This document shows, piece after piece, positions 11,667 to 40,183 of a DNA stretch of 40,183 bases; positions within the stretch are counted from its first letter, which is position 1; every line of letters begins with the position of its first letter. Location of the stretch: positions 1 through 40,183 of the forward strand of contig JAFOBJ010000091.1 of NCBI GenBank assembly GCA_017381865.1, written 5' to 3'. Below the pieces are notes generated by a model, which ran no database searches, was not told where the DNA came from, and saw nothing but the letters and a program-made list of their open reading frames with translations. The translations under genes and the position numbers were made by a program. The DNA comes from Bacteroidales bacterium. Its GTDB lineage: Bacteria; Bacteroidota; Bacteroidia; Bacteroidales; F082.

Positions 11667-11726
11667 GCTCCGAAGGAGCGGCAGTTCCCAGGCAGGTGAT
11701 GAAGCGCAATGCGCGAAATCCCTGCA
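11667..11726 (+). repeat. Structured two-hairpin element, copy A
   Basis: Hairpin 1 is GCTCC-gaa-GGAGC followed by ggcag. The second part has outer arms GCAGG and CCTGC enclosing GCGC-aat-GCGC. Copies B and C keep the pairing with different bases. Confidence 0.8.
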
Positions 11727-11750
11727 AATGAGGTTTTAAAAAAATCAAAG

Positions 11751-11803
11751 CGCCGAAGGTGCGACAGAATTGAGTTTGATGTTTCTGTCGTACCTTCGGC
11801 ACT
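11751..11803. repeat. Long inverted repeat made of two head-to-head hairpin-1 modules
   Basis: Arms 11752-11769 and 11783-11800 pair over 18 positions, one of them G-T, with a 13-base loop. Each arm also contains a hairpin-1 module of the structured element: GCGCC-gaa-GGTGC-gacag on plus and GTGCC-gaa-GGTAC-gacag on minus. Confidence 0.8.
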
Positions 11804-11825
11804 CTTATCAAATTCGGTCTTTATT

Positions 11826-11884
11826 GCAGGCATTCCGAGCTACGCTCTTCATACCTGCCTGGAAACTATCGTCCCTAACGGGAC
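11826..11884 (-). repeat. Structured two-hairpin element, copy B (inverted)
   Basis: Read on the minus strand: GTCCC-gtta-GGGAC, spacer, then GCAGG ... CCTGC enclosing GAGC-gta-GCTC. It is the inverted partner of copy A, with compensatory changes in both stems. Confidence 0.8.
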
Positions 11885-11912
11885 TTATTTTTGTTGTAAA
11901 TTTTAAAATGAG

Positions 11913-11953
11913 GCCAACAGTCAAAAGTCAACGGTCAAAAGTCAAAGGTCAAA
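11913..11953 (+). repeat. 7-bp-period array (gtcaaaa/gtcaaca type)
   Basis: Units gccaaca, gtcaaaa, gtcaacg, gtcaaaa, gtcaaag, gtcaaaa, immediately upstream of the duplicated promoter module. Confidence 0.85.
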
Positions 11954-11962
11954 AAAGCCCAT

Positions 11963-12027
11963 AGCTAAATGTTAAAAATTATTATATATTTTCTTCTTGA
12001 CAAAAGCGTTGTAAACTTGTATTTTTG
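11963..12027 (+). promoter_or_regulatory. Promoter of the GNAT-type module, second copy of the 45-bp module
   Basis: TTG (11997-11999), 20 bp, TATTTTTG (12020-12027). 11963-12007 is identical to 10886-10930, after which the two promoters diverge. Confidence 0.8.
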
Positions 12028-12053
12028 CAGACATAAAACAAAATAGTGAAACC

Positions 12054-12206
12054 ATGGCAAGAAAAATTCAAGAAACACCAATTTTAACAGGTAAAGATGC
12101 GGAACGCTTCATCAAGCGTATGCAAGAAACACGCACTGTATCAGACGAAGAAATAGAAAGAGTTAAGAAAAACTACGAATATATCATGAGCATAGCAAAA
12201 TTTTGA
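12054..12206 (+). CDS. Small putative antitoxin upstream of a GNAT protein
   Basis: 50 residues, starting MARKIQETPILTGKDAERF and ending YIMSIAKF. It is the first ATG (26 nt) after a strong Bacteroidetes-type promoter, and its stop codon lies 3 bp before the GNAT start codon. The 'ETPILTGKDAERFIKRM' block is one I associate with short proteins encoded before toxin-like partners in Bacteroides. It has no ribbon-helix-helix (DUF1778) pattern, although that is the usual antitoxin partner of GNAT toxins. Antitoxin function is inferred from size, order and the shared promoter. Confidence 0.7.
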   Translation: MARKIQETPILTGKDAERFIKRMQETRTVSDEEIERVKKNYEYIMSIAKF

Positions 12207-12209
12207 GGT

Positions 12210-12743
12210 ATGATAGTTCGTCGTTTGTGTGAAGATGAAACAATAAACTCGTTTTATTGTGGTGATAGTGATTTGGATGACTTTATCTTAAATGAAGCAT
12301 CGCTGTATCGTAATTCTCTATTGTCCGTAAACTACGTTATGGAAGAAGAGGATAATTCTGTCGCTTTTTTTAGTTTGTCCAATGACAAGATTTCAATACA
12401 TGACTTTGAGGATAAAACGAAATTCAATCGTTTCAGAAGTCGTAAGTTTGTCAATAAGAAAAGAATAAAGAGTTATCCTGCGGTAAAAATAGGTCGATTT
12501 GCAATAGATTCCAAATTTCAAGGCAATGGCATTGGGTCAATTTTGTTAGATTTTATAAAAGGATATTTCTTAGTCGACAATAAGACCGGATGCAGATTTA
12601 TTACTGTTGATGCTTATAAGTCTGCGATTCCCTTTTATGAAAAGAATGGTTTTGTCGCACTGCAAAATCGTAATGATGCTTTTACTCAACTAATGTATTT
12701 CGATTTAGCAGACTATAAAAACAAATTGAAAGTTGGTTGTTGA
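12210..12743 (+). CDS. GNAT-family N-acetyltransferase, possible TacT-like toxin
   Basis: 177 residues. An acetyl-CoA binding signature, QGNGIGS, lies at about residues 104-110 after the strand KIGRFAID. The C-terminal block SAIPFYEKNGF contains the conserved Tyr expected to act as general acid. TacT/AtaT-type toxins have the same size and fold and acetylate aminoacyl-tRNA. It follows a 50-residue gene by 3 bp and shares a promoter module with the adjacent RelE-like module, both of which favour a toxin role. A housekeeping acetyltransferase is the alternative. The stop codon lies in a 'ttgttgaac' stretch resembling the local 7-bp repeats. Confidence 0.78.
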   Translation: MIVRRLCEDETINSFYCGDSDLDDFILNEASLYRNSLLSVNYVMEEEDNSVAFFSLSNDKISIHDFEDKTKFNRFRSRKFVNKKRIKSYPAVKIGRFAIDSKFQGNGIGSILLDFIKGYFLVDNKTGCRFITVDAYKSAIPFYEKNGFVALQNRNDAFTQLMYFDLADYKNKLKVGC

Positions 12744-12757
12744 ACTTTTTGCTATAA

Positions 12758-12813
12758 GTCAATGGTCAATGGTCAAAAAAAAGCTCACGGCTCATTGCTC
12801 GTAGCTCACAGCT
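12758..12813 (+). repeat. 7-bp-period arrays upstream of the carboxylase operon
   Basis: gtcaatg, gtcaatg, gtcaaaa units (12758-12778) are followed by ctcacgg, ctcattg, ctcgtag, ctcacag units. 12783-12813 is identical over 31 bp to 10859-10889. Confidence 0.85.
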
Positions 12814-12827
12814 TTTTATTATATTTG
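12795..12827 (+). promoter_or_regulatory. Promoter of the carboxylase/Ptb-Buk operon
   Basis: TATATTTG (12820-12827) with TTG at 12795-12797, 22 bp upstream. The TTG lies inside the 7-bp array, so the array supplies the -33 element. The leader to the start codon is about 20 nt. Confidence 0.6.
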
Positions 12828-12849
12828 CCGAAATTAAAAAAATAAGGTT

Positions 12850-14457
12850 TTGCAAGTATTAAAATCACAGATAAATCCTAACAGCAAGGAGTTTCAGGAT
12901 AATAAGAAAGCCTACATGGAGTTGATGGCTCGTTATCGTGAAGGCATGGCTATGAGTATGCAAGGCGGCGGTGCTGTCGCTGTCGAGAAGCATAAGAAAC
13001 GTAACAAACTTCTCGCTCGCGAGCGCATCGACCAGCTCATCGACAAGAACACTCCGTTTCTGGAACTCTCGCCGATGGCTGCTTACGACACTTATAACAA
13101 CGACTTCCCATCTGCAGGTATAATCACGGGAATAGGAATAATACAAGGCAGAGAGGCGATGATCGTTGCCAATGACGCCACGGTGAAAGGCGGCACTTAT
13201 ATGCAATACACCGTGAAGAAGCATCTTCGTGCTCAAGAGATTGCGATGGAGAACAAACTGCCATGTGTCTATATGGTCGACAGCGGCGGCGCGTTCCTTC
13301 CTGAACAAGATACAGTCTTTCCGGACAGAGACCACTTCGGTCGTTTCTTCTACAACCAGGCTCGTATGTCGGCGATGGGCATTCCGCAGATTGCCATAGT
13401 GATGGGTATGTGTACAGCAGGCGGAGCTTACGTTCCAGCGATGAGCGACGAGACCATCATAGTGAGAAACCAAGGCACGATTTATCTGGCGGGACCTCCT
13501 TTGGTGAAAGCCGCTACAGGCGAGATCGTCACAGCTGAAGAACTCGGCGGAGCCGATATGCACACTTCTGTCTCTGGCGTCGCTGACCATCTCGCAGAAA
13601 ACGACAGCCACGCCATGCAGATATGTCGTAATATTTTTAAAACTTTAGAAAAGAAAGAGAAACAACGCCTCGACATACTTCCTATCGAGGCTCCATTATA
13701 CGACCCAGAAGACTTGTACGGCATCGCGCCCGTCGACCTTCGTCAGCTCGTTGACCCGAGGGAAGTCATCGCTCGCCTCGTCGACGGCAGCCGTTTCCAG
13801 GAGTTCAAGGCTCGCTACGCCATCACGATAGTATGCGGATTCGCTCATATCATGGGGTTCCCTGTCGGCATCATCGCCAACTACGGAGTGTTGTTCTCCG
13901 AGTCGGCACTTAAAGCAACACACTTCATCGAGTTGTGCTGTCAAAGAAATATACCACTCGTATTCTTGCAGAACGTCACAGGATTTATGGTCGGAAAGCA
14001 ATATGAATGCGGCGGTATCGCTAAAGACGGTGCCAAGATGGTACACGCTGTAAGTAACGCCAACGTGCCTAAGTTCACCGTCATCTTCGGCGGCTCATTC
14101 GGCGCAGGCAACTACGGCATGGCAGGACGCGCCTATAGTCCAAGGCTGTTGTTTATGTGGCCTAATGCCAAGATTTCCGTCATGGGCGGCGAACAGGCAG
14201 CCGGTGTGCTAACCACGGTGAAGGCTGACCAATACAAGGCAAGAGGCTTGGAAGTTTCACAAGAAGAACTGGCTAAGATAAAATCAGAGATACTCGCCAA
14301 ATACGACTACGAAGGCTCGGCGTTCTACAGCACCGCACGTCTCTGGGACGACGGCATCATCGACCCTGTCGACACTCGTAAGATATTAGCAATGGGAATT
14401 GCGTCATCGTTGAACCAGCCATTCCCACCGTTGCAATTTGGCGTATTTAGAATGTAA
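12850..14457 (+). CDS. Methylcrotonyl-CoA-carboxylase-type carboxyltransferase (beta) subunit
   Basis: 535 residues, the usual length for this family. The beta subunit moves the carboxyl group from biotin to an acyl-CoA. The segments [52 protein letters not shown] and [12 protein letters not shown] follow the methylcrotonyl/geranyl-CoA carboxylase pattern more closely than propionyl-CoA carboxylase. The start is TTG at 12850: no in-frame ATG lies upstream, a -7 element ends 23 nt before, and starting at the next ATG would lose conserved N-terminal sequence. It is the first gene of a plus-strand operon with a hydratase, the biotin-carrying alpha subunit, an acyl-CoA dehydrogenase, ptb and buk. 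The likely substrate is 3-methylcrotonyl-CoA from leucine. Confidence 0.88.
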
Positions 14458-14464
14458 AAAAAAC

Positions 14465-14541
14465 AATGCATAATTCATAATGCATAATTCATAATTGTCT
14501 GTAATTATGCATTGTGAATTATGAATTATGAATTGAATAAA
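14465..14541. repeat. Imperfect inverted repeat built from cataatt/gaattat 7-mers
   Basis: The left arm is a chain of cataatt and cataatg units. The right arm is a chain of the complementary gaattat units. The two are separated by 'gtctgt'. The right arm runs into the first codons of the hydratase gene. A shorter cousin lies at 22675-22697. Confidence 0.75.
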
Positions 14542-15309
14542 ATGGATTTCACGACATTACAAATAGGAATAGAAAAGAATGTGGCTCGCATCGCCTTGAA
14601 TCGTCCGGAGGTGCGTAACGCCATGAATGCGTTGATGATAAAAGAACTGACAGAAGCTGTCGACTGGCTCGATGCTCGTGATGACATCAGAGTCATTGAG
14701 ATATGCGGCAACGGAAAGTCGTTCTGTTCGGGAGCTGACATCAATTATATGAAAGACATCGCATCGTTCGGTTACGAGCAAAACTTTGAAGATGCGAGAC
14801 GACTTTCTAAGTTATTCCAAAAGATATATTTCTGTAACAAACCCGTCATCACATTGGTGCATGGCGCAGTGATAGGCGGAGCCAACGGCATTACTGCGGC
14901 GTCTGACGTGGTGCTCGCCGAGAAAGACACCGTTTTCGCTTTCAGCGAAGTGAAACTGGGACTTACGCCAGCCACGATATCGCCTTTCGTCATAGCGAGA
15001 TGCGGTGAGATGCCTGCACGCGACCTGATGCTTTCGGGAAGAAAATTTACAGCACAAGAAGCGATGGATTATAAGCTCGTCAATTACGTTGGAAATATCG
15101 ACGAATTAAACCAAAGACTAGACTTTTATATCGACAATTATTTGAAAGCTTCGCCAAATGCCATCAGAGACTGCAAACATCTCATTAGAAATGTCGTTGG
15201 AAGAGCAAATCCTTACGATGGAATTTTTGATGCCACGGCCATGATGATAGCACAAGAAAGAATGTCGGACGACGCTCAGGAGAGGATGAAGGAGTTTTTG
15301 GGATGTTGA
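14521..15309 (+). CDS. Enoyl-CoA hydratase/isomerase, probable methylglutaconyl-CoA hydratase
   Basis: 262 residues from 14521. The crotonase core is clear: ALNRPEVRNAMN, GNGKSFCSGADI (oxyanion-hole strand), HGAVIGGANGI and FSEVKLGLTPATISPFV. The last motif, with Glu and a following Gly-Leu, is typical of LiuC/AtuE-type 3-methylglutaconyl-CoA hydratases. The gene lies between the two carboxylase subunit genes, as liuC does in liu operons, which supports hydration of 3-methylglutaconyl-CoA to HMG-CoA. The first seven codons come from the gaattat repeat, so the ATG at 14542 (MDFTTLQ) may be the true start. The stop codon TGA is part of the first unit of the following ttgacca array. Confidence 0.82.
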   Translation: MNYELNKMDFTTLQIGIEKNVARIALNRPEVRNAMNALMIKELTEAVDWLDARDDIRVIEICGNGKSFCSGADINYMKDIASFGYEQNFEDARRLSKLFQKIYFCNKPVITLVHGAVIGGANGITAASDVVLAEKDTVFAFSEVKLGLTPATISPFVIARCGEMPARDLMLSGRKFTAQEAMDYKLVNYVGNIDELNQRLDFYIDNYLKASPNAIRDCKHLIRNVVGRANPYDGIFDATAMMIAQERMSDDAQERMKEFLGC

Positions 15310-15350
15310 CCATTGACCATTGACTGTTGACCATTGACCTTTGAACTATT
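15306..15350 (-). repeat. 7-bp-period array, reverse (ttgacca) orientation
   Basis: Six units: ttgacca, ttgacca, ttgactg, ttgacca, ttgacct, ttgaact. The first supplies the stop codon of the hydratase gene. It is inverted relative to the array on the other side of the four-helix-bundle gene. Confidence 0.88.
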
Positions 15351-15373
15351 TATAAACCAAAAATTATTAAACC

Positions 15374-15723
15374 ATGAGAAATTTTAGAAATTACGACATT
15401 TGGAAAGATTCTATGCTTTTGGCAAAGAATATTTGTCACACACCAAGAACTTTCCTCAATATAGTGCTATTGCAAATCAGATTCAACGTTCCGCTATATC
15501 AATACCATCAAATATAGCAGAAGGTGCTTCTCGGTCATCATCTGTAGAATTCGCCAGATATTTAGAAATAGCTATTGGTTCTGCGTTTGAGTTAGAGACT
15601 CAAATTGAATTGTCATACTATTTTCAGTATATAGATGAGGACAATTATAAAAAACTAATATCAGATGTGGTTAGTGTAGAAAAAAGAATATCAAGCGTTA
15701 TCTCAAAGATACGAACTAGATAA
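15374..15723 (+). pseudogene. Four-helix-bundle (S23/IVP-like) protein, frameshifted
   Basis: The typical N-terminus MRNFRNYDIWKDSMLLAKN is read from the ATG at 15374. The rest of the family sequence (YLSHTKNFP, QIQRSAISIPSNIAEGASR, FELETQIELS) continues in the frame one base earlier, starting within about 15416-15435. One missing base, for example in the TTTT or GAA run, explains this. The intact product would be about 117 residues, normal for the family, which is known from 23S rRNA intervening sequences and also occurs as dispersed genes of unknown function. It interrupts a metabolic operon and is bordered by 7-bp arrays in opposite orientations, which suggests insertion as a cassette. A sequencing error or programmed frameshifting remain possible. 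Confidence 0.75.
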
Positions 15724-15729
15724 CTTTTG

Positions 15730-15817
15730 TTCAACAGTCAAAAGTCAATAGTTAATGGCCAAAAGTCAATAGTTAAAAAAAATAATTACAAATTGTAAAT
15801 CGTAAATTGTAAATTAT
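15730..15817 (+). repeat. 7-bp-period arrays (gtcaaaa type, then gtaaatt type)
   Basis: 15730-15774 has caacagt, caaaagt, caatagt, taatggc, caaaagt and caatagt units. 15790-15817 has gtaaatc and gtaaatt units and leads straight into the -7 element of the next promoter. Confidence 0.8.
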
Positions 15818-15825
15818 TAACTTTG
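15793..15825 (+). promoter_or_regulatory. Internal promoter before the alpha-subunit gene
   Basis: TAACTTTG (15818-15825) preceded by TTG (15793-15795), 22 bp apart. The ATG at 15835 follows 9 nt after the element, so the transcript would be leaderless or nearly so. Confidence 0.5.
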
Positions 15826-15834
15826 TGTCCTATT

Positions 15835-17862
15835 ATGCCTTCAAAGAAAATACATAAGATATTAGTTGCGAACAGAGGCGAGATTGCGGTTCGTATTATC
15901 AGCACATTAAAGAAGCTGAGCATTAGCTCTGTCGCTGTGTATGCTGATAATGACGTTGATTCTATGCATTGTCGTCTTGCTGACGAAGCGCGTCCACTTG
16001 GTGGCGGCGGCTTGAAGGACACATATCTTAACATTCAGAAGATTATAGACGTAGCTTTAGATGCTGGCGTCGACGCTATTCATCCTGGATATGGATTTTT
16101 GTCGGAAGACGCCGACTTTGTCGAGGCATGTGAAGCGAATAATTTGATATTTGTCGGTCCTGATGCCGAGTCGATGCGACTTATGGGCGACAAAATCAGG
16201 GCGCGTCAGTTTGCTATCGAGAATGATATTCCCGTCGTTTGGGGATTGGTAGGCAGCGTTGAGGAAATAGAGGCTCAAGCCGCCGCCCTGCCGTATCCTG
16301 TATTGATAAAAGCCTCTGCGGGCGGCGGCGGTAAAGGCATGCACATCGTAGAAGACGCCTCTCAACTACGCCTCTCGTTAGAACAAGCCTCCCGAGAAGC
16401 TGAACGTTACTTCGGCAACGGACAGATTTTTATCGAACAATATATCAGAAATCCTCGCCATATCGAGGTGCAAATCCTCGCCGACCATCACGGCAATGTC
16501 ATTCATCTCTACGAACGCGAATGCTCGGTGCAACGCAGATACCAAAAGATAATAGAAGAATCACCATCACCATCGTTATCAGAAGAAAGACGTCAAGCGA
16601 TATGTCAAACCGCTGTCGACATCTGTAAGAAAATGAATTATAACAACGCTGGCACGGTGGAATTCATCGTGGATGAGAACCAGAACTTCTATTTCCTCGA
16701 GATGAATACCAGAATCCAGGTGGAACATCCAGTCACGGAACAAAGAACCGGAATTGATATCGTGGAGGAGCAGATTCGTATCGCACGCGGCAAGGTGATG
16801 GGTTACACCCAGGATTCTATCGTGGCTAACGGCCACGCCATAGAATGCAGAATCTATGCGGAAGACCCAGAAAATAATTTCATGCCAGCACCAGCTCAAC
16901 TCACATTATACCACGAACCAAAGATGCGCGGCGTGAGAATCGATAGTAGCATCAACAGACCAACTGTCATATCCGACAGCTACGACCCGATGATAAGTAA
17001 ACTCATCTGCCACGGCAAGACAAGAGAATCAGCTATCGAAATTACAAGAAACGCACTTAAAGATTATATCGTACAGACATATAAAACCAATATACCTTAT
17101 CTTCAAAGCATTATCAATAACGAAGATTTTATCAATAACAAAATCGACACTTCTTATTGCGAAAAACATCAGCAAGAACTGATAGAATCGATGCATTCTA
17201 TGCGCAACGAAATAAAGAAGGAAGATGTCGTTGCTTTGTTCTTGTTTTATGATTTTAATAAGTTATATCTTGAGAATAAAGACATTAGCAATGTTTGGGA
17301 GAGAATAGGATATTGGCGTTATAATATGAATATCACTGTTAGTGTTGAAGGACAACAGTCAACGGTCAATAGTCAACAGTCAACAGTTTTCAATGTTAAT
17401 ATTGAAAAGATAAGTCCTAAGTCGTTGAAATGCAATATCAATGGACATGATTATGAGGTCTTGTTGACGCAGAACGGCGGTGGTATTAATAAAGTTATGA
17501 TAAATGGAATGACGGAATCTATTTTCGTTTCGGAGACATCAGACAATAAATATTGCGTTCATCTTATGGGCCTCGACTTTATTTGTCGTCGTAATGATGA
17601 GTTGAACGATTCGAGAGATTATTCTTGTAATGATGTGAAAAACAATGATATGGAATATCATTCTCCGATGCCAGGCAAGGTCATCAAAGTCAATGTTAAA
17701 GAAGGCGATGATGTTAAAGAAGGCGATGTGTTGTGCGTTGTCGAGGCAATGAAAATGGAAAATAATATCAAGGCAATGACTTCGGCAAAAGTAGCTAAAG
17801 TCTTTGTCAATGAAGGTGATAAAGTAGATGTTAAAAATATTTTGATAGAATTATCGATATGA
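15835..17862 (+). CDS. Acyl-CoA carboxylase alpha subunit (biotin carboxylase + BCCP)
   Basis: 675 residues from the ATG at 15835. A TTG at 15823 lies inside the promoter element and is rejected. Residues 1-450 are a biotin carboxylase domain: KILVANRGEIAVRII, ATP-grasp KASAGGGGKGM, YERECSVQRRYQK and EMNTRIQVEHPVTE. The C-terminus is a biotinyl domain with EAMKM, whose Lys carries biotin. The BC-BT-BCCP order matches methylcrotonyl/propionyl-CoA carboxylase alpha subunits. The linking biotin-transfer region contains about 12 residues (GQQSTVNSQQSTV, near 505-518) encoded by a gtcaaca 7-bp array at 17353-17388, absent from ordinary homologues as far as I know. The gene overlaps the next by 4 bp. 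Confidence 0.9.
   Translation: MPSKKIHKILVANRGEIAVRIISTLKKLSISSVAVYADNDVDSMHCRLADEARPLGGGGLKDTYLNIQKIIDVALDAGVDAIHPGYGFLSEDADFVEACEANNLIFVGPDAESMRLMGDKIRARQFAIENDIPVVWGLVGSVEEIEAQAAALPYPVLIKASAGGGGKGMHIVEDASQLRLSLEQASREAERYFGNGQIFIEQYIRNPRHIEVQILADHHGNVIHLYERECSVQRRYQKIIEESPSPSLSEERRQAICQTAVDICKKMNYNNAGTVEFIVDENQNFYFLEMNTRIQVEHPVTEQRTGIDIVEEQIRIARGKVMGYTQDSIVANGHAIECRIYAEDPENNFMPAPAQLTLYHEPKMRGVRIDSSINRPTVISDSYDPMISKLICHGKTRESAIEITRNALKDYIVQTYKTNIPYLQSIINNEDFINNKIDTSYCEKHQQELIESMHSMRNEIKKEDVVALFLFYDFNKLYLENKDISNVWERIGYWRYNMNITVSVEGQQSTVNSQQSTVFNVNIEKISPKSLKCNINGHDYEVLLTQNGGGINKVMINGMTESIFVSETSDNKYCVHLMGLDFICRRNDELNDSRDYSCNDVKNNDMEYHSPMPGKVIKVNVKEGDDVKEGDVLCVVEAMKMENNIKAMTSAKVAKVFVNEGDKVDVKNILIELSI
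17353..17388 (+). repeat. gtcaaca-type 7-bp array inside the alpha-subunit gene
   Basis: Five 7-bp units read in frame as QQST-VNSQQST. The coding strand carries the stop-free orientation. Confidence 0.85.
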
Positions 17863-19001: not shown

Positions 19002-19038
19002 TAAGATAATGAGTTTAATATAATTAAAAAGCAGAGTT

Positions 19039-19938: not shown

Positions 19939-19965
19939 TAATATAAACATAAAAAAATTAAGACT

Positions 19966-21039: not shown

Positions 21040-21043
21040 TAAT

Positions 21044-21104
21044 GTAGAGACGTCACTCCCGTGGCGTCTAAAAAAAGAAAGAGACGCCACGGAGTGACGT
21101 CTCT
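21044..21104. repeat. Inverted pair of GAGACG/CGTCTC palindromes (copies 8 and 9)
   Basis: Copy 8 (21044-21069, plus) and copy 9 (21081-21104, minus) face each other across an 11-base A-rich spacer and can form one long stem. Bases at matching positions correspond (ACTCCCGTGG against CCACGGAGT), so the pair may have arisen as a unit. Confidence 0.85.
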
Positions 21105-30860: not shown

Positions 30861-30916
30861 GAGTTCCTCAACTCCTAACTCCTAATTCCTAACTCCTAAC
30901 TCCTAACTCCTAACTC
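30861..30916. repeat. aactcct-type 7-bp array between mlaD and the OstA-like gene
   Basis: About seven units (aactcct, with aattcct variants) fill most of the 88-bp gap and reach the mlaD stop codon. Both orientations contain stops, and this unit type is not found in any gene here. Confidence 0.85.
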
Positions 30917-31817: not shown

Positions 31818-31834
31818 TTTATTTTTGTTTAAAA

Positions 31835-32929: not shown

Positions 32930-32937
32930 AAGAAACG

Positions 32938-32967
32938 TATATTTGCAGATAATTTTTTACAAAAATA
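32938..32967. promoter_or_regulatory. Divergent promoter pair, amidase (-) and lptD-like (+)
   Basis: TATATTTG on plus (32938-32945) points to the lptD-like gene. TATTTTTG on minus (plus 32960-32967) points to the amidase gene. The two -7 elements sit within 30 bp in a 47-bp gap, so the transcripts may compete. Confidence 0.55.
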
Positions 32968-32976
32968 AAAAATAAA

Positions 32977-35727
32977 TTGTTGAGGAGCAGAATATATACA
33001 TATTTTATTGTTTTTTTCTTTTTCTTCGCTTTGTTTCTATCGGGTTGCAGAACCTTGAAAGCAACAGGTGAAGTGAATGAAATTCAAGATACTATAAAAT
33101 CTGTAGATACTGTTTTCGACGAGGCTTCAGATTCGACAGAGAAAGTTCTTGACACTCTGAAATATGACACTGTTCTGACGCAAAAAAATGATGTCGCAGT
33201 TCGTGACACATTGTCGAAAGGCGACACAATTGCACCTAAAGAAACAAAAACGGCGCAAAAACAAGCTTCATTCATCAATGATAAAATTGAACGCTCATGC
33301 AGCGACTCCACTGTTCAGGATTTTAAAAACAATAAAATTTACTATTACGGCGAAGCTAAAGTCGTTTATGAAGACATTACGATAGAGGCTGCGTTTATAG
33401 AATTCGATTTCGAGAAACGTACCGTTTTTGCCCAAGGACTTCGCGATTCGACGGGCAAATTATACGGTGCGCCAGTTTTCATCGAAGGCGACCAACGATA
33501 TAATTCCGAGACGATGACATTTAATTTTGATACGAAAAAAGGTATCATCACAAAGGTCTTTACCGAAGACGCGATGGGTTATATCCACGGAGCCAAAATT
33601 AAAAAGTTGGAAGACAACACTATCAATATCAAATCGGGTTCTTTTACGACATGCAGCAATCCGGAACATCCACATTTCGAGTTTCATTTCGGCAAGGCTA
33701 AAGTCATTCCTGATGATAAAATCGTGACAGGACCTGCGTATTTCAAGTTGGAAGAGACGCCGCTTCCTATCGGTGTTCCTTTCGGCATTTTCCCGAATTC
33801 CAAGGGACAACGCAACGGTATTTTGGTTCCATCGTGGGGCGAATCGGCAAACAGAGGTTTTTATTTGGAAAACGGAGGTTTCTACTGGGGAATCAACGAA
33901 AATCTTGACCTTCAACTTGTTGGCGACATTTACACTCGAGGCAGCTGGGCTTTGAAACCTACGTTGCGTTATAATAAACGTTATGCGTTTAATGGTTCAT
34001 TTTCAGGAAGTTATGCGGTGAATAAAATCGGCTCTAAAGGCTCCGCCGACTATAACGAAAGCACAGACTTCAAAGTGCGATGGGTTCATAAGCAAGACCC
34101 GAAAGCAAGACCGAAATCTTCGTTCTCTGCCGACGTTTACATCGTGAGTTCTAACTATAACAAATACAATGCGATATCGTCGAACGAATATCTGAGCAAC
34201 ACTTTCCAGTCGAGTGTCGCGTATCAGACGAGCATAGGCAGTCTGTTTAACTTTACAGCCAATGCGAGCCATAGTCAAAATACGCTCACTCGTGTAATGA
34301 CAGTCACTTTGCCAGAAGTCACGCTTACCATGAATCGTGTTTATCCTTTTAAAAATGTTGGCAAGACAGGAAAGAAAAGATGGTACAAAGACATGTATGT
34401 CAGCTATACAGCCAATGCGAAGAATTATGTCAGCATGGCCGACAGTCTTTTTTTCAAACCAGGTTGGCTCGATAATTTGCAAAACGGTATCCAGCACAGG
34501 ATTCCGATTAGTATGCCAGTGAAATTGTTTAAATATGTCACATGGACTACATCGGTGAATGTTTTGGATAGAATGTATTTTCGATATTTTGAGAAACAAT
34601 GGGTTAGCGACCCAACAATGTCTAGTGGAGGCTATCTTAAAACAGATACGATAAATCAGTTTAGAAATGTGTTCAGTTTTGATGTGTCGAGTAGTATGAC
34701 AACGAAGATTTACGGACAAGTCAACTTCAAGAAAGGCCCGATTCGAGCTATACGTCATGTCTTTACGCCTTCGATAGGATTTTCCTACAATCCTGATTTC
34801 TCCAAAGATTTCTGGAATTATTACAACACATATTACGATGCCAATGGCATTGAACAGCTTTATTCGATGTTTCAGGGGAACGTTTATGGAACGCCGCCGT
34901 CGGGTCAGTCGGGTCGTATAAATTATAGCTTTGGCAATAATCTTGAGATAAAAGTGCCGTCGAGAAAAGACACCATTACTGGAGTTAAAAAAGTTAAAGT
35001 TATTGAAGATATTACATTTAGCGGTAGTTATGACATTGCTAAAGACTCGCTTAATTTTTCGTATCTCTCCGTTAATGGCAGAACTACATTGTTTAAAAAC
35101 TTATCAGTAAGATATTCAAGTATTTGGGATCCTTATATTTTGGATTCAACAGGACGTAAACAGCTCAATCAGTTTGAATGGGATGTTAACAAACGTTTGT
35201 TCAGAAAGAACAGCGTGTCGTGGAATTTCAGTTTGAGTTATTCGTTGAATAACGACACTTTCAAGAAAAACAAGGGCAAAGGAGCGAGCAACACTAAGCG
35301 GCATCTCGACTCGCCGTTGGCGTCGGAAGAAGAGATGAACGACATTCGCATGAATCCTGATAGTTACGTCGATTGGTCGACGCAATGGTCATTGTCGCTG
35401 AGTTATAACCTTACTTTGTCGAATAGTCTCTCGTATATAAATTATCTGTTGCAAGACAATAGGAAAGTCATTCAGACTCTTGGTATTAACGGTAATATCA
35501 ATCTTACTCCTAAATGGAAAGTCTCTGTTCAAACAGGTTGGGACTTCGAGTTGAACAAATTGTCGTACACCTCGTTGACGATATATCGCGACTTGCATTG
35601 TTGGGAGATGCGTTTCAACTGGATTCCGCTTGGAACATATAAGAGTTGGAACTTCCAGATTAACGTGAAGGCGGCTGCACTTCAAGACCTTAAACTTACG
35701 AAGAAAAAAGACTATAGAGATAATTGA
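32977..35727 (+). CDS. lptD: LptD-like LPS-assembly outer-membrane protein
   Basis: 916 residues, usual for Bacteroidetes LptD. The N-terminal OstA-like part (about 105-260) has YYYGEAKVVYEDITIEA, then a long beta-barrel region (about 300-916) of alternating strands such as YAFNGSFSGSYAVNK. LptD inserts lipopolysaccharide into the outer leaflet, normally with LptE. TTG at 32977 or 32980 is the start; no in-frame ATG precedes. The signal sequence ends LFLSGC (Cys24), which looks like a lipobox, an oddity for a barrel protein. The OstA-like gene and an MCE gene lie divergently nearby. Confidence 0.85.
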   Translation: MLRSRIYTYFIVFFFFFALFLSGCRTLKATGEVNEIQDTIKSVDTVFDEASDSTEKVLDTLKYDTVLTQKNDVAVRDTLSKGDTIAPKETKTAQKQASFINDKIERSCSDSTVQDFKNNKIYYYGEAKVVYEDITIEAAFIEFDFEKRTVFAQGLRDSTGKLYGAPVFIEGDQRYNSETMTFNFDTKKGIITKVFTEDAMGYIHGAKIKKLEDNTINIKSGSFTTCSNPEHPHFEFHFGKAKVIPDDKIVTGPAYFKLEETPLPIGVPFGIFPNSKGQRNGILVPSWGESANRGFYLENGGFYWGINENLDLQLVGDIYTRGSWALKPTLRYNKRYAFNGSFSGSYAVNKIGSKGSADYNESTDFKVRWVHKQDPKARPKSSFSADVYIVSSNYNKYNAISSNEYLSNTFQSSVAYQTSIGSLFNFTANASHSQNTLTRVMTVTLPEVTLTMNRVYPFKNVGKTGKKRWYKDMYVSYTANAKNYVSMADSLFFKPGWLDNLQNGIQHRIPISMPVKLFKYVTWTTSVNVLDRMYFRYFEKQWVSDPTMSSGGYLKTDTINQFRNVFSFDVSSSMTTKIYGQVNFKKGPIRAIRHVFTPSIGFSYNPDFSKDFWNYYNTYYDANGIEQLYSMFQGNVYGTPPSGQSGRINYSFGNNLEIKVPSRKDTITGVKKVKVIEDITFSGSYDIAKDSLNFSYLSVNGRTTLFKNLSVRYSSIWDPYILDSTGRKQLNQFEWDVNKRLFRKNSVSWNFSLSYSLNNDTFKKNKGKGASNTKRHLDSPLASEEEMNDIRMNPDSYVDWSTQWSLSLSYNLTLSNSLSYINYLLQDNRKVIQTLGINGNINLTPKWKVSVQTGWDFELNKLSYTSLTIYRDLHCWEMRFNWIPLGTYKSWNFQINVKAAALQDLKLTKKKDYRDN

Positions 35728-35756
35728 TTTTTAATTGATTAAAAAGATATTACAAG

Positions 35757-36968
35757 ATGAAGACAATAAAAGAAATATATCGTATAGGCCATGGCCCTTC
35801 TAGCAGTCACACCATGGCTCCACGTTTTGCATCGGAGCAGTTTCTTGCACGACATCCAGAAGCTGCACGCTTTGAAGTGACATTATATGGCAGTCTCGCC
35901 CTCACAGGAAAAGGTCACTTGACAGATGTCTCTATTTTAGATGTTCTTGAGAAAAAAGCTCCAGTCACGATAAATTGGCAGCCAGACATTTTTCTTCCGT
36001 ATCATCCTAATGGAATGACATTCAAGTCTTTTGATTCTGAAGGCGTCATGACGGAAGAATGGACGGTTTATAGTGTTGGCGGCGGTGCTCTTGAAGAAGA
36101 AAATAAGCCAGCAGTTTTGCCAGATATTTATCCAATTACCAGAATGACAGACATTTTGAATTGGTGTGAAGAAAAAGGCAAGGCGTATTGGGAATATGTC
36201 AAAGATGTGGAAAATGATCCGTATTTGATGGATTATCTTGAAGAAGTGTGGCAGACTATGCGAGATGCTGTTGAGCGCGGGCTTCAGACTGAAGGACGTT
36301 TGCCAGGACCGCTGAATTTACCTCGTAAGGCTGCTAACTATCATGTCAAGGCGATGGGTTATCAGCATACGTTGAAAAGCAGAGGCTTGGTGTTTTCATA
36401 TGCTCTTGCCGTCAGTGAGGAAAATGCCTCTGGAGGCTTGATTGTCACGGCTCCTACATGCGGTTCGTGTGGAGTATTGCCTGCAGTGTTGTATCACTCG
36501 GCCAAGGCATACGATATCGCTAAGCCGAGGATTCTCAATGCCTTGGCCACAGCGGCTCTCGTAGGTAACCTCGCCAAGACCAACGCCTCCATTTCTGGAG
36601 CAGAAGTGGGATGTCAGGGCGAAGTCGGCGTCGCATGCGCTATGGCAGCAGCGGCGGTATGCCAGCTCTTCGGCGGCAGCTGCGCTCAGATAGAATACGC
36701 AGCAGAGATGGCTCTCGAACATCACCTCGGAATGACATGCGACCCCGTGTGCGGTCTCGTCCAGATACCTTGCATCGAACGTAACGCCTTCGCAGCAGCA
36801 CGCGCCATGGACGCTAACATATACGCTACTTACACCGACGGAACTCACAGAGTGTCGTACGATAAAGTAGTCGAGACAATGAAAAAAACTGGACACGATA
36901 TGCCGCTTCTCTACAGAGAAACATCAACAGGCGGACTCGCCAGCGGCTACGAACAAATGGATTATTGA
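35757..36968 (+). CDS. sdaA: L-serine ammonia-lyase, iron-sulfur type, single chain
   Basis: 403 residues. It converts L-serine to pyruvate and ammonia using a [4Fe-4S] cluster. The beta-domain motif GHGPSSSHTMAPRFA is at the N-terminus. The alpha domain has TAPTCGSCGVLPAV and GMTCDPVCGLVQIPCIERNA, whose Cys residues bind the cluster. It is a one-piece enzyme of the Bacteroides kind, in contrast to the two-chain SdaAA/SdaAB. It follows lptD by 29 bp without a visible promoter, so it may be read from that transcript. Confidence 0.93.
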   Translation: MKTIKEIYRIGHGPSSSHTMAPRFASEQFLARHPEAARFEVTLYGSLALTGKGHLTDVSILDVLEKKAPVTINWQPDIFLPYHPNGMTFKSFDSEGVMTEEWTVYSVGGGALEEENKPAVLPDIYPITRMTDILNWCEEKGKAYWEYVKDVENDPYLMDYLEEVWQTMRDAVERGLQTEGRLPGPLNLPRKAANYHVKAMGYQHTLKSRGLVFSYALAVSEENASGGLIVTAPTCGSCGVLPAVLYHSAKAYDIAKPRILNALATAALVGNLAKTNASISGAEVGCQGEVGVACAMAAAAVCQLFGGSCAQIEYAAEMALEHHLGMTCDPVCGLVQIPCIERNAFAAARAMDANIYATYTDGTHRVSYDKVVETMKKTGHDMPLLYRETSTGGLASGYEQMDY

Positions 36969-37058
36969 TAAGTCAATAAGCCTATAAGTCTATAAGTCAA
37001 TAAGCACTCATAGACTCATAGACTTATAGACTTATAGACTCATAGACTCATAGACTTA
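36969..37058. repeat. 8-bp-period array (atagactt type) between sdaA and thpR
   Basis: About 90 bp of aagtcaat, aagcctat, aagtctat, atagactc and atagactt units. Both directions contain stop codons. The array reaches within 6 bp of the thpR start. Confidence 0.88.
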
Positions 37059-37063
37059 AAATC

Positions 37064-37639
37064 ATGAAAAGACTTTTCCTCGCAATACCTATAAAGACTA
37101 ATGACAATGGTTTCATTCCGCTTTTAGATGGATTGAGACGTCAGCTGGCTCATGAGAAACGTATCAACTGGGTCAAGCCGGAACATATTCATCTGACGCT
37201 GAAATTCATCGGCAACACTCCAAACGAAGACATCCCGAAAATAATCGATGGAGTGGGAGAGATGCTGCAAAATCATAAGAGCTTCACCATGGATTTCAAC
37301 AGAACTGGTATCTTCGGCAGCCGTTACGCTCCTCGTGTACTCTGGCTCGGAATGCAAAACACGCCTCAGGAATTATATGATTTGGAAGAAGATACATTGT
37401 CGACATTCGATAAACTGGGTTATCTCCGCGACAGACAGAATTTCGTGCCTCATATCACATTGGGACGCATCAAAGAGTTATGCGAGAAACAATATTTCCA
37501 GAAAATAGTCGCTGCTACGGAACAGAAATCTTACATCAGACAAGAAGTCAATGAGATAATATTGTTCCAAAGCATCCTCCGACCTGAAGGTGCGTTTTAT
37601 AAAGAGATAAAGAGGTTTGAACTAAGAGCTAAGAACTAA
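37064..37639 (+). CDS. thpR: RNA 2',3'-cyclic phosphodiesterase (2H family)
   Basis: 191 residues. Both 2H signature motifs are present: HLTL (His43) in KPEHIHLTLKFIG and HITL (His130) in FVPHITLGRIK. ThpR/LigT enzymes open 2',3'-cyclic phosphates on RNA and may ligate tRNA halves in vitro. The last residues, RAKN, and the stop codon are encoded by the following aagaact-type array (37619-37657), so the C-terminus has been replaced or extended by repeat sequence. Confidence 0.92.
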   Translation: MKRLFLAIPIKTNDNGFIPLLDGLRRQLAHEKRINWVKPEHIHLTLKFIGNTPNEDIPKIIDGVGEMLQNHKSFTMDFNRTGIFGSRYAPRVLWLGMQNTPQELYDLEEDTLSTFDKLGYLRDRQNFVPHITLGRIKELCEKQYFQKIVAATEQKSYIRQEVNEIILFQSILRPEGAFYKEIKRFELRAKN

Positions 37640-37657
37640 GGCTTTTGAGCTAAGAAC
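37619..37657 (+). repeat. agctaag/gaactaa-type repeat at the thpR 3' end
   Basis: Units aactaag, agctaag, aactaag, gcttttg, agctaag, aac. It contains the thpR stop codon and is followed by a ggctgctgagcttgtcgaag string, a sequence I recall as common in other bacterial genomes (recollection, unchecked). Confidence 0.7.
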
Positions 37658-37722
37658 TTTTTGGGGCTGCTGAGCTTGTCGAAGTGATGATAGATAATGT
37701 ACATTGAAGCATTGTATTATAT

Positions 37723-38286
37723 ATGAATAATATTATTAGTAAAATAAAATCATATTATCCTATTTCTGATGAGGCTTTATGTGCTCTGAAAAATGAGATG
37801 CATCTTGTACGTTATCCTAAAAATACAATTCTAGTATCTTCTGGTTCAACTGATAAAAATGTTTATTTCGTTGAAAATGGTCTTACTCGTTCTATCTTTC
37901 ATAAAGATGGCATAGATACAACGACCTGGTTTAGCATGGAAGGTGACATAACATTCGGAATGTATTCTTTATATCACAATATGCCTTCGGTGGAGAGTGT
38001 TCAGACTCTAACAGATTGTGATATTTATGTTATCTCTATTGACGCACTTAATGATTTGTATGAAAGGTATATAGATATAGCCAATTGGGGACGCATAGTT
38101 CATCAAGACGTAAATCGCTTGTTGAGCCATATCTTTGTTGAAAGACTTCAGCTTTCTCCTAAGGAGCGTTACGAGTGTTTTCTTAAACATTTTCCAGGAC
38201 TTCTTAATAGAGTAAAGCTTAAATATGTCGCTGAATTTTTAGGGATTTCTATATACACTTTAAGTAGAATTCGTTCAGAAAAATGA
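37723..38286 (+). CDS. Crp/Fnr-family transcriptional regulator
   Basis: 187 residues. Residues about 15-125 form a cyclic-nucleotide-binding-like beta roll (VRYPKNTILVSSG, VYFVENGLTRSIFH). The C-terminal helix-turn-helix is RVKLKYVAEFLGISIYTLSRIRSEK, where TLSRIR is the recognition helix. Bacteroidetes have many such ~190-residue regulators whose ligands are unknown. No Cys cluster for an Fe-S centre as in Fnr is present. The next gene is an acyltransferase, and a perfect palindrome lies just after this gene. Confidence 0.85.
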   Translation: MNNIISKIKSYYPISDEALCALKNEMHLVRYPKNTILVSSGSTDKNVYFVENGLTRSIFHKDGIDTTTWFSMEGDITFGMYSLYHNMPSVESVQTLTDCDIYVISIDALNDLYERYIDIANWGRIVHQDVNRLLSHIFVERLQLSPKERYECFLKHFPGLLNRVKLKYVAEFLGISIYTLSRIRSEK

Positions 38287-38288
38287 TT

Positions 38289-38306
38289 TTTTGCTTTAAA
38301 GCAAAA
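38289..38306. promoter_or_regulatory. Perfect 18-bp palindrome, candidate operator
   Basis: TTTTGCTTTAAAGCAAAA lies 3 bp after the crp/fnr stop and about 20 bp upstream of a TAATTTTG -7 element (38327-38334) for the acyltransferase gene. It is symmetric like Crp/Fnr sites and lacks a following T-tract, so an operator is more likely than a terminator. Confidence 0.5.
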
Positions 38307-38362
38307 GATTATCTCTGCTCTTACCTTAATTTTGCATTGAAATTGTTAAATGTCAAAATCAA

Positions 38363-39706
38363 ATGAACATCAAACCTCATTACCTCCTTCTCGACGGTCT
38401 TCGTGGCGCAGCGGCTCTCATGGTGCTGTGGTATCACGTCTTTGAAGGTTTCGCCTTCGCTGGCGGAACTGCTATAGAAACTTTTAACCACGGTCACCTC
38501 GGCGTGGATTTTTTCTTCATGCTCTCTGGTTTCGTCATCAGCTACGCGTATGATGACCGATGGAAAAAAAGTAAAGACGTCACCCCTGTGGCGTCTAATG
38601 TCAACAGCCAATGGTCAACAGCTAATGGTCAACAGTCAATGGTCAACAGCCTTAGTATAGGTTCTTTCTTCAAGCGTCGTCTCATCCGCTTGCATCCTAT
38701 GGTGGTGATGGGCGCGGTCATCGGTCTCATAACATATCTCATTCAAGGAGGAGTGCAGTGGGACGGAACGCAAGTCTCTTTCCATTGGGTTATGATAGCG
38801 TTTTTCCTCGGCATGTGTCTCATTCCAATTCATCCCGGCGCGCCATACGACGTCCGCGGCAATGGCGAGATGTTTCCGCTCAACGGCCCAAGCTGGTCGC
38901 TGTTCTTTGAATATGTAGGTAATATTTTATATGCTTTATTCATAAGAAAACTGTCAAATAAAAAATTAGCTTTCTTATGCGGAGCGATAGGAATCTTATG
39001 GGTCGCATTCGTCACTTTCGATGTCTCAACTTACGATATGATTGGCATCGGCTGGACTTTAGATGTCGTCAATTTCTTCGGAGGATTATTGAGAATGCTG
39101 TTTCCATTTACATTAGGAATGCTGATGGCGAGGAATTTTAATAAGACTACAAGTAGAGACGTCACCCCTGTGGCGTCTCAAAATGTCACCCCTGTGGCGT
39201 CTCAGAATGTCACCCCTGTGGCGTCTCAGAATGTCACCCCTGTGGCGTCAGCAGTCAATGGTCAATGGTCAATGGTCAACAGTCAACAGTCAACAGTCAA
39301 CAGTCAACGGTCAATTTTCTGGATTTCTGTCGTTGTGTTATTCGCTCTTTTCTCAGTGCCTTATATCCCAAAGACTGGAAATATCAGCATAAATGGAATT
39401 TACGAATTGTTCTGTATAATATGCGTATTTCCTCTCATCGTATGGTTTGGCGCAAAAGGCAGCACAACAAGTGCCTTTTCAACGAAAGTATGCGAGTTCC
39501 TCGGCGATATTTCTTATCCTTTATATATCGTCCACTATCCGATAATGTATCTCTTCTATTCTTGGCTCATCAAAAATGAGTTGTACACGCTCGGCGAGAC
39601 ATGGCCTGTGGTGCTGCTCGTAATGGCAACAAGCATCGTATTAGCGTATGCCTGCTTGAAATTATACGACGAACCAATAAGAAAACGTCTAAGCTCTGAC
39701 CGTTGA
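38363..39706 (+). CDS. Acyltransferase family 3 membrane protein with two repeat-derived insertions
   Basis: 447 residues; homologues are nearer 360-380. About ten membrane helices and the family start LLLDGLRGAAALMVLWYHVFEG with its His are present, then DFFFMLSGFVISYAY, SFFKRRLIRLHPM and SYPLYIVHYPIMYLF. These enzymes move acyl groups onto sugars of LPS, capsule or other envelope polymers. Residues about 70-96 and 263-318 are not family sequence: they read KDVTPVAS, QNVTPVAS and VNSQQST-like repeats and are encoded by palindrome copies and gtcaaca arrays. Both fall in loops between helices. The stop codon TGA is in a ttgacta repeat. Confidence 0.85.
   Translation: MNIKPHYLLLDGLRGAAALMVLWYHVFEGFAFAGGTAIETFNHGHLGVDFFFMLSGFVISYAYDDRWKKSKDVTPVASNVNSQWSTANGQQSMVNSLSIGSFFKRRLIRLHPMVVMGAVIGLITYLIQGGVQWDGTQVSFHWVMIAFFLGMCLIPIHPGAPYDVRGNGEMFPLNGPSWSLFFEYVGNILYALFIRKLSNKKLAFLCGAIGILWVAFVTFDVSTYDMIGIGWTLDVVNFFGGLLRMLFPFTLGMLMARNFNKTTSRDVTPVASQNVTPVASQNVTPVASQNVTPVASAVNGQWSMVNSQQSTVNSQRSIFWISVVVLFALFSVPYIPKTGNISINGIYELFCIICVFPLIVWFGAKGSTTSAFSTKVCEFLGDISYPLYIVHYPIMYLFYSWLIKNELYTLGETWPVVLLVMATSIVLAYACLKLYDEPIRKRLSSDR
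38571..38650 (+). repeat. In-gene palindrome (copy 10) plus gtcaaca array
   Basis: Palindrome 38571-38596, then seven 7-bp units 38600-38650 (gtcaaca alternating with gccaatg, gctaatg and gtcaatg). The whole insert stays in frame. Confidence 0.88.
39153..39315 (+). repeat. In-gene palindrome, 24-bp tandem repeat and gtcaaca array
   Basis: Copy 11 (39153-39180), then three 24-bp units (39182-39205, 39206-39229, 39230-39249) carrying the core of the palindrome but with its first six bases lost, then nine 7-bp units (39253-39315). Periods of 24 and 21 keep the frame. Confidence 0.9.
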
Positions 39707-39765
39707 CTATTGAACTCAGACACAGACTTTGACTTATAGACTCATAGACTTATAGACTTGTAGTC
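39703..39765. repeat. ttgacta units and atagactt-type 8-bp array after the acyltransferase
   Basis: ttgacta and ttgaact (39703-39716) hold the stop codon. 39721-39760 is an 8-bp array of the same type as 36969-37058. Confidence 0.8.
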
Positions 39766-39773
39766 TTTTTTTT
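39754..39773 (+). terminator. Probable terminator of the acyltransferase gene
   Basis: AGACT-tgt-AGTCT followed by eight T. The stem is short (5 bp) and is made from the end of the 8-bp array. Confidence 0.55.
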
Positions 39774-39856
39774 GGGCGTTCCGGCAAAGCCGTCGGGCTT
39801 TCCGCTATATCTTTGCTCGCTACGCTCGCAAAGGATGCCGCTCCAATCCCTAACGC
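39774..39856. repeat. Dispersed structured element (gggcgttcc ... ccctaacgc)
   Basis: Contains CGGC-aaa-GCCG and CTTTGC ... GCAAAG hairpins. I recall closely similar sequences scattered in Bacteroidetes intergenic DNA. The recollection is unchecked and there is only one copy here. Confidence 0.5.
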
Positions 39857-39923
39857 ATTGGCAGCGATTAAAACCAAGCAAACCTCAGAAAACCATAATC
39901 CCGTTAAAATCCAGGAATCCGTT

Positions 39924-39948
39924 GAGACGCCACAGGAGTGACGTCTCA
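39924..39948 (-). repeat. GAGACG/CGTCTC REP-like palindrome, last copy
   Basis: Minus-orientation copy with a variant centre (acagga), next to the aactcctc array at 39950-39988. Confidence 0.8.
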
Positions 39949-39949
39949 A

Positions 39950-39988
39950 TAACTCCTCAACTCCTCAACTCCTCAGTTCCTCAGTTCG
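39950..39988. repeat. aactcctc 8-bp array
   Basis: aactcctc three times, then agttcctc and agttcggt. Confidence 0.8.
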
Positions 39989-40021
39989 GTAATGTTGCCA
40001 AAAATGGTTGGCAGTTGAGCG

Positions 40022-40078
40022 AAAAAAAGACAGGTAATGGGCATACAAAACAGCCCAACAAATTACCTGTCTTTTTTT
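40022..40078. terminator. Intrinsic terminator near the right edge
   Basis: A7-GACAGGTAAT pairs with ATTACCTGTC-T7 (17 bp). The apical region contains an inner GGGC/GCCC stem. The A and T flanks make it bidirectional; the gene it serves on the right lies outside the window. Confidence 0.85.
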
Positions 40079-40122
40079 CTATCCTAAATTTAAAATATTT
40101 ACCAATATATTCTAATATTGAA

Positions 40123-40183
40123 GTTCCGGAGGAACGGCAGACAATAGGCAGGTGATGGAGTGCAATAGCACGAAATCCCTGCA
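40123..40183 (+). repeat. Structured two-hairpin element, copy C
   Basis: GTTCC-gga-GGAAC hairpin, spacer, then GCAGG ... CCTGC enclosing GTGC-aata-GCAC. It ends at the window edge. Base changes relative to copy A are paired (C-G to T-A). Confidence 0.8.

Follow-up and report, generated by a model that had tools for sequence, protein, structure and literature searches.

The 40,183-nt contig JAFOBJ010000091.1 of assembly GCA_017381865.1 (Bacteroidales, F082), called the window in the following, carries copies of a two-hairpin DNA element. The element is real, repeated in the genome and covarying in its paired bases; it frames an IS200-like transposase gene of TnpA subclass 1.2 and is of the same kind as repetitive extragenic palindromes (REPs) and miniature inverted-repeat transposable elements (MITEs). 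With a probability of about 85%, it represents the folded end sequence of a small family of IS200-like (Y1, HUH) transposases of this subclass, the gene-less pairs of copies being similar to MITEs or REPINs. Being scattered through the genome and framing a small transposase gene, the element resembles a miniature mobile element more than a regulatory RNA. Genomes and fetched loci are given as G and L codes, the genome of the window being G000.

Structure of the element

Three copies are present in the window (11667-11726, plus strand; 11826-11884, minus strand; 40123-40183, plus strand). These places and their layout had been described in an earlier analysis of the letters alone (the sequence-only reading) and were confirmed. 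Each copy consists of hairpin 1 (HP1; 5 bp with a loop of 3-4 nt), 12 unpaired bases and hairpin 2 (HP2). The HP2 stem GCAGG/CCTGC is extended by GAT/ATC (GCAGG-x-GAT / ATC-CCTGC) or occurs in an 8-bp version with UAU/AUG; beyond this outer stem, a symmetric GAA/GRA internal loop is followed by an inner hairpin of 4 bp. In all three copies these helices are the unconstrained minimum-energy fold as single-stranded DNA (ssDNA), with z-scores of -2.4, -4.0 and -4.0 against shuffled sequences. The complement of copy c1, the sole copy folded on both strands, gave the same helices.

The first two copies belong to one inverted unit of 222 nt (11665-11886), which folds with a z-score of -7.6 against shuffles. 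The sequence-only reading had named two further hairpin-1 modules at 11750-11762 and 11790-11802. Both are third, inner hairpins of this unit, HP3 and HP3' (Table 1).

Covariation of the paired bases

For the analysis of covariation, 82 of 88 matches of a covariance model (45 from G000, 35 from G009 and 2 from L112) were aligned using MAFFT, after six truncated or weak matches had been dropped. The copies were gathered with a structure-bearing model built from the three window copies, which is a weak point of this test. HP1 of the rows with a 4-nt loop was re-laid by a fixed rule that leans towards the structure; the unmodified MAFFT alignment was therefore evaluated too. There, HP1 of these rows is shifted out of register, to the disadvantage of the structure.

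Among the 76 distinct rows, 11 of the 17 pairs are standard in every row that has letters on both sides. Another five pairs are broken in one or two rows, and a single pair of the inner hairpin is broken in 6 of 75; 20 rows were left out at one pair because of a gap. One HP1 position pairs as C-G, T-A, A-T, G-T and G-C, among others. The best 7 of 1,891 column pairs all belong to the proposed helices. Four of these seven exceed every value obtained in 60 tree-preserving simulations, for which an R-scape-like null was used (FastTree tree, substitutions redistributed along the branches, one parsimony reconstruction). The other ten structural pairs are mostly invariant and gave no covariation signal. 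Summed over the pairs, 34 events were found in which both partners changed on one branch.

In the unmodified alignment 94.5% of the cells pair, compared to 31-47% with slid partners. Changes of both partners were counted in 174 cells, the shuffles having a mean of 51. For the further pair types, 25 of 500 shuffles attained the observed number (24 vs. 21.6 in shuffles). The entropy is 0.57 for paired and 0.75 for unpaired columns; since the paired columns vary less, the differences are not spread alike over both classes. As an anchor control, distinct GGCAGG contexts were inspected: in 58 of 79, a full 5-bp hairpin lies upstream at a distance of exactly 12 nt. From the other 21 contexts 14 were displayed, and none of the 13 having letters was element-like by eye. 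Selection on the structure, considered likely in the sequence-only reading from pairing that is kept while bases change, is supported by the covariation.

The framed transposase genes

The sequence-only reading had suggested either a structured RNA or a REP-like element recognised by a RAYT/TnpA-type transposase. The search for such a gene in the assembly revealed two Y1_Tnp (PF01797) genes, L004 and L005. Both are open frames with the HUH and tyrosine motifs, and the encoded proteins are 93% identical. As placed by eye, each tnpA gene lies between HP3 and HP3' of one inverted unit. The same elements were found on both sides of the gene in L112, a locus of a Bacteroidales metagenome-assembled genome (MAG) from roe-deer colon, whose TnpA is 74% identical. 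The REP-like option with a Y1/TnpA protein is favoured by this framing of the genes.

The tyrosine (Y) motif, YIRNQNEHH, fits the signature Y---Q--HH of TnpA subclass 1.2. Ten TnpA proteins of this type have H55, H57, Y115, Q119, H122 and H123 in common. At the DH[IV]H position NHIH was found in L004 and L005, SHVH in L112 and DHIH or DHVH in many relatives. A conserved C-terminal tail is visible in the TnpA alignment, seen without the HMM published for the C-terminal domain of about 30 amino acids of subclass 1.2. The NCBIfam IS200 model scored 45.9 (cut-off 55), and a phmmer search of TnpA against PDB sequences gave nothing at E ≤ 0.001. At the foot of HP1, AAAA is the most common set of four bases on the element strand and TGTC on the opposite strand.

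A plain IS200 element was also considered and was dismissed because of the Y motif, the foot and the copy pattern. The copy pattern of IS200/IS605 subclass 1.1, namely several near-identical tnpA genes that move together with their ends, is not seen in this 79%-complete assembly with its two tnpA genes.

Copies in the genome and in related genomes

The covariance model of the three window copies was used to search for further copies, as suggested by the sequence-only reading. In the own genome (2.12 Mb, 79% complete) 45 full-length matches were obtained (E < 1e-6). These comprise 16 convergent gene-less pairs, 2 pairs enclosing tnpA and 9 single or contig-end copies. The orientation is identical in all 18 pairs, with HP1 outside, and the gene-less pairs measure 153-161 bp from start to start. 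The gene-less units that were measured (n = 23) are 213-226 bp long. Among 40 sampled relatives, G000 included, matches at E ≤ 0.01 were identified in 17, namely in 16 of 24 members of the genus and 1 of 16 others. The nearest-scoring relative, G009, has 40 matches at this threshold; outside G009, many of the weaker listed matches cover only about 50 nt.

The units are dispersed as blocks. The unit of the window and that of L037 are 94% identical, whereas their 70-base flanks are 0.60 and 0.59 identical (background median 0.59). For L045 and L050 the corresponding values are 92% and 0.56/0.51, and several unit pairs with 86-94% identity have both flanks near background. One half-unit was found at the same site in the two species G000 and G009 (L044/L126).

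Recurrence of the layout around other subclass 1.2 genes

A match to the subclass 1.2 profile (E ≤ 1e-20) was found in 93 of 198 sampled Bacteroidota genomes. For the flank test, the left flank of each Y1 gene was aligned with the reverse-complemented right flank and compared to 100 shuffles. The first set contained 28 of 35 fetched Y1 loci (the motif-bearing ones plus L113); L083-L085 and L108-L111 were excluded as motif-less or not subclass 1.2, and L097 entered with only 49 downstream bases. Of these loci, 16 scored above all 100 shuffles and three more above 99, while of 29 control pairs of windows placed at a distance from the gene, one scored above all of 60 shuffles. The second set comprised 29 loci chosen by profile score from the 198 genomes, one per genome and without the own genome. 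Here 14 loci scored above all 100 shuffles and two more above 99, compared to 1 of 56 control pairs (Fisher p = 2.5e-7). The near-identical loci L092/L093, L178/L183 and L004/L005 count twice in these tests. The one control pair of the second set that scored above all shuffles (L171) stems from a contig region in which GTAGAA-type repeats adjoin TnpA.

By eye, the plan HP1-HP2-(HP3)-tnpA-(HP3')-HP2'-HP1' was found with unrelated letters in L094, L105, L102, L145 (a Persicobacter plasmid) and L190. L094 is from another family, and 24 matches of its half-element are present in that genome. In L104, the nearest locus outside L004, L005 and L112, HP2 lacks the inner hairpin by eye. In a midpoint-rooted tree of 36 chosen TnpA proteins, read without support values, the loci with two hairpins (by eye) are in one main group: L004, L005, L112, L104, L100, L102, L106, L105, L107, L094, L145, L190, L187, L175, L191 and L185. 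This group also includes L101, L182, L099, L097, L095 and L103. Loci with a single hairpin and a GTAGA-type tail (L172, L192, L193 and others) are located elsewhere in the tree.

In the TnpA group L172, L178, L183, L192, L193 and L144, short single hairpins with a tail like AATATTNGTAGAA are inverted around the gene, and in some genomes repeats of the AATATTNGTAGAA type cluster near TnpA. Of 38 matches to a generic GTAGAA-type pattern, 12 lie within 1 kb of a TnpA gene.

Relation to the Rfam family Acido-Lenti-1

The Rfam family RF01687 (Acido-Lenti-1) is filed as a small RNA (sRNA) in the available part of Weinberg 2010 (PMC2864571). Its consensus is HP2, 12 nt and HP1, which is the plan of the element read on the other strand. 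In a scan of 48 TnpA loci, the first 13 of which had been chosen for visible structures, a match to RF01687 at E ≤ 0.05 was found in 11 (L102 in one scan only, with 0.052 in another). The gathering score of 37 bits was exceeded in the flanks of four loci, L190, L094, L182 and L175. L114, a subclass 1.2 TnpA locus in an Acidobacteria MAG, scored 34.1, which is below gathering.

The window copies are not members of the family, since their scores are at chance level: 13.7-15.4 bits for the unit 11665-11886, and 21.2 bits for L041/L043, in which HP1 and spacer are as in the third copy. The tie to RF01687 runs via intermediates such as L102, a locus of the same genus that is framed by a short form of the element and scores 26.2. 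RF01687 was found in 41 of the 198 genomes; subclass 1.2 TnpA is present in 30 of these 41 and in 63 of the other 157 (p = 1.9e-4). Among the RF01687 matches listed for TnpA-bearing genomes, 16 of 134 are at most 1 kb away from a listed TnpA gene. The Poisson expectation is 0.20, which takes clustered matches as independent; the 16 belong to nine TnpA genes in eight genomes, and a further 16 matches listed in TnpA-less genomes were excluded.

RF01687, listed as an 'RNA family', appears to represent elements of this type too. The available part of a 2026 pangenome paper proposes Acido-Lenti-1 noncoding RNAs as possible regulators of Tannerella proteases (PMC13298647). If the RF01687 matches are transposase ends, this regulatory interpretation needs revising.

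At the unit, matches to MIR8562/mir families were far below gathering and look like artefacts of the long palindrome; they were rejected. A GUCCY-hairpin motif is tabulated for Bacteroidetes and Proteobacteria in Table 1 of PMC2864571, in a row with no Rfam accession, and may correspond to the HP1 module.

Proposed mechanism and alternative explanations

Each end would be a composite of HP1 and HP2 with HP3 as an inner third hairpin, and two inverted ends would form a unit of about 220 bp, with tnpA in two pairs of the own genome and gene-less in sixteen. Most likely, the end would fold once its strand is exposed, for example at the replication fork on the lagging-strand template. TnpA would then recognise the hairpins by their shape and a few bases, such as the HP2 bulge or internal loop, the conserved spacer and the HP1 foot. 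Likely contacts, by analogy to IS608 and TnpA_REP, are the T bulge and the GAA/GRA internal loop, along with GACAG, which recurs at the start of the spacer. The catalytic tyrosine may cut and rejoin beside the foot, by which units would be copied or moved. Binding, cleavage, the strand, the cleavage site and the role of TnpA as the spreader of the gene-less units are inferred. For IS608 and TnpA_REP, the sections available of PMC8266576 describe strand-specific ssDNA hairpins, a bulge that is needed in E. coli REPs and a dinucleotide cleavage beside the structure.

Several observations weigh against the transposase-end explanation. Three of the seven best column pairs are not significant singly (E = 0.07, 0.2 and 1.2). 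G009 has its 40 matches, and yet its sole Y1 gene is framed by another repeat, with an array of a different hairpin module in front of the gene; in G022, which has 23 matches, the only Y1 gene carries another Y motif. The association of at least six model matches with any Y1 gene in the genus is modest (p = 0.04, with a threshold set post hoc). Inverted flank similarity at the level of the test is absent in 12 of 28 and 15 of 29 loci, and in L088 and L099, which passed, the aligned stretches are not obvious hairpin elements by eye. Of the 198 genomes, 15 contain the GTAGAA-type pattern; TnpA is present in 11 of these 15, which is not significant (p = 0.057). The priA side of the L004 unit has matches in 24 of 24 genomes of the genus. 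In G009, the sole genome inspected there, no element was found behind priA; the intergenic stretch does not align, so this site was not counted as an empty site, and a clean empty site was not found in this one genome.

Because G009 and G022 carry matches without a matching Y1 gene, copies can occur without a cognate gene in the assembly. In G009 the cognate gene would be lost, unassembled or not needed; a tblastn search for it in the fetched G009 element loci found none.

As one alternative, the copies could have spread by gene conversion or as passengers, TnpA being a later guest inside a pre-existing palindromic repeat. The halves are joined in differing combinations among the units, and some copies, including the third window copy, lie within a longer repeat. 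Other unit pairs have one entire flank in common but not the other, and the window and L037 are alike over roughly a dozen bases immediately beyond the left end of the unit; from both it is concluded that halves were exchanged along with a flank. This explanation does not fit the several unit pairs of 86-94% identity with both flanks near background. In addition, relatives with unrelated ends have the same layout, which is hardly expected of a chance guest. Overall, it is considered unlikely.

A structured RNA, with the elements transcribed as sRNAs or as hairpins of 3'-untranslated regions and the transposase as a bystander, would agree with the strong covariation and with the related plan filed as the Acido-Lenti-1 sRNA. 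Transcription from neighbouring genes, and a secondary effect at the RNA level, are possible. However, the copies are mostly inverted pairs of near-fixed length, centred on tnpA or on a short stretch, and the c1 complement folds alike. The plan stays beside tnpA across families though the letters change, and in the scan of the window no Rfam family reached the gathering score at the element sites. Overall, this makes a structured RNA quite improbable.

A canonical class 2 REP/RAYT system, with GTAG-tagged REPs and a Y..NP transposase, shares the inverted palindromes flanking a Y1 gene and the many dispersed copies known from REPtrons, but is very improbable in view of the Y motif, the GTAG/GTGG foot in 0 of 82 HP1 copies on either strand and a REP_Tyr_transpos score of 27 (cut-off 80); the transposase is accordingly no canonical RAYT.

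As a broader form of the transposase-end explanation, subclass 1.2 would be a further kind of REPtron with composite multi-hairpin ends, in which the letters turn over while the plan stays, and Acido-Lenti-1 would be such an end. The system would then be common in Bacteroidota and present in at least one Acidobacteria MAG, and its gene-less pairs would be a source of structured intergenic repeats. We regard this combined proposal as somewhat probable.

Comparison with known systems

The element would work like a REP/RAYT system, yet is not a canonical member. As in REPtrons, described in the available sections of PMC6006769 and PMC8266576, a Y1 HUH gene is framed by inverted folded palindromes and many gene-less inverted pairs are dispersed. 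In contrast, the transposase here is of subclass 1.2 instead of class 2, each end has two or three hairpins instead of one, the GTAG/GTGG foot is lacking and the gene lies inside the same type of unit that is dispersed.

According to the part of Quentin 2018 available (PMC6006769), subclass 1.2 is related to the IS200/IS605 TnpA and occurs mostly in Cyanobacteria and Bacteroidetes. It is described there as without properties of insertion sequences (IS), generally without IS200 terminal structures and with 'no' in the REP column. The Y motif, the WQ motif, the length of 150 amino acids, the occurrence in Bacteroidota and the low copy number agree with this description. The difference is that a subclass published as REP-less has, in this genome, terminal structures that are repeated. 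The published absence of REPs is read as a gap in the description rather than an exclusion. The substrate of subclass 1.2 was left open in 2018, and these elements are a concrete and testable candidate for it. With their ends, a structured ssDNA substrate is at hand in many naturally occurring compensatory variants, which are useful for studies of HUH recognition.

The nearest precedent in concept are the TIRtrons with their TIRYTs (Di Nocera et al., 2013; PMC3733652), Y1 genes flanked by inverted repeats without GTAG that can form moderate repeat families. The available part of that paper names CGTC repeats in Bacteroidetes, but neither a TIRtron of Bacteroidota nor a covarying two-hairpin structure. 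RF01687 likewise has two hairpins with 12 nt between them, their order being the same when read on the other strand, whereas HP2 of the window element is longer and has an internal loop and the window copies score below gathering. MITEs are similar in size (about 220 bp) and in being non-coding, dispersed and composed of inverted halves. Here, the ends are hairpins of the folded-ssDNA kind, and by eye no target site duplication was noticed at the units (no dedicated test was made). A Chryseobacterium paper (PMC11194056) names 'RayT' transposases in Bacteroidota and leaves palindromes or hairpins unmentioned in its available part. In a search that left out most subscription papers, no publication was found that connects subclass 1.2 to REPs or RF01687 to a transposase.

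Features of the window

The positions of the helices are given in Table 1.

Table 1. Parts of the two-hairpin element in the window.
Feature	Position	Strand	Remarks
Complete inverted unit HP1-HP2-HP3 || HP3'-HP2'-HP1', 222 nt	11665..11886		Without transposase; corresponds to the two units of the genome that carry TnpA
HP1, left half	11667..11679	+	GCTCC/GGAGC
HP2, left half	11692..11725	+	Stem GCAGG-(T)-GAT / ATC-CCTGC, symmetric internal loop GAA/GAA, inner stem GCGC/GCGC
HP3, left half	11750..11762	+	GCGCC/GGTGC, followed by GACAGA
Centre of the unit, 15 bases	11769..11783		Place occupied by the TnpA frame in L004 and L005 (by eye)
HP3', right half	11790..11802	-	GTGCC/GGTAC
HP2', right half	11826..11858	-	Inner stem GAGC/GCTC
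HP1', right half	11871..11884	-	GTCCC/GGGAC
HP1, third copy	40123..40135	+	GTTCC/GGAAC
HP2, third copy	40148..40182	+	Inner stem GTGC/GCAC; unit cut by the contig end at 40183

The sequence preceding the third copy (about 39990-40120) recurs next to other copies (C86, C91 and L120 of G009); the third copy is thus part of a larger repeat with GTTGCCAAAA-like ends. A match to Rfam Flavo-1 (RF01705) just above gathering is located at 39787-39873 (minus strand), and matches below gathering were found in L040, L038 and L126 and beside the L171 TnpA. Flavo-1 may be another dispersed repeat filed as an sRNA.

A different palindromic repeat, GAGACGTCACCCCTGTGGCGTCTC, occurs with variants at 1-24, 110-133, 10786-10809, 11532-11624, 21047-21070, 38565-38596, 39156-39249 and 39924-39947. 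It is also present in frame in an open reading frame (ORF; 38363-39706, acyltransferase-like by eye), where tandem 24-bp copies encode VTPVASQN/DVTPVAS. Arrays of 7-bp (GTCAACA/GTCAATG) and 8-bp (ACTCATAG) repeats were found at 10809-10855, 11915-11954, 15304-15344, 17353-17387, 36968-37056, 38600-38651, 39247-39314 and 39731-39767. They are intergenic and also occur in frame within the ORFs 15823-17862 and 38363-39706.

Two promoter-like stretches (10879-10952 and 11956-12029) are 88% identical and lie at a distance of 1077 bp. The second is followed by a short ORF and an ORF for a GNAT-like acetyltransferase (12210-12743); by eye, these two ORFs resemble a toxin-antitoxin pair.

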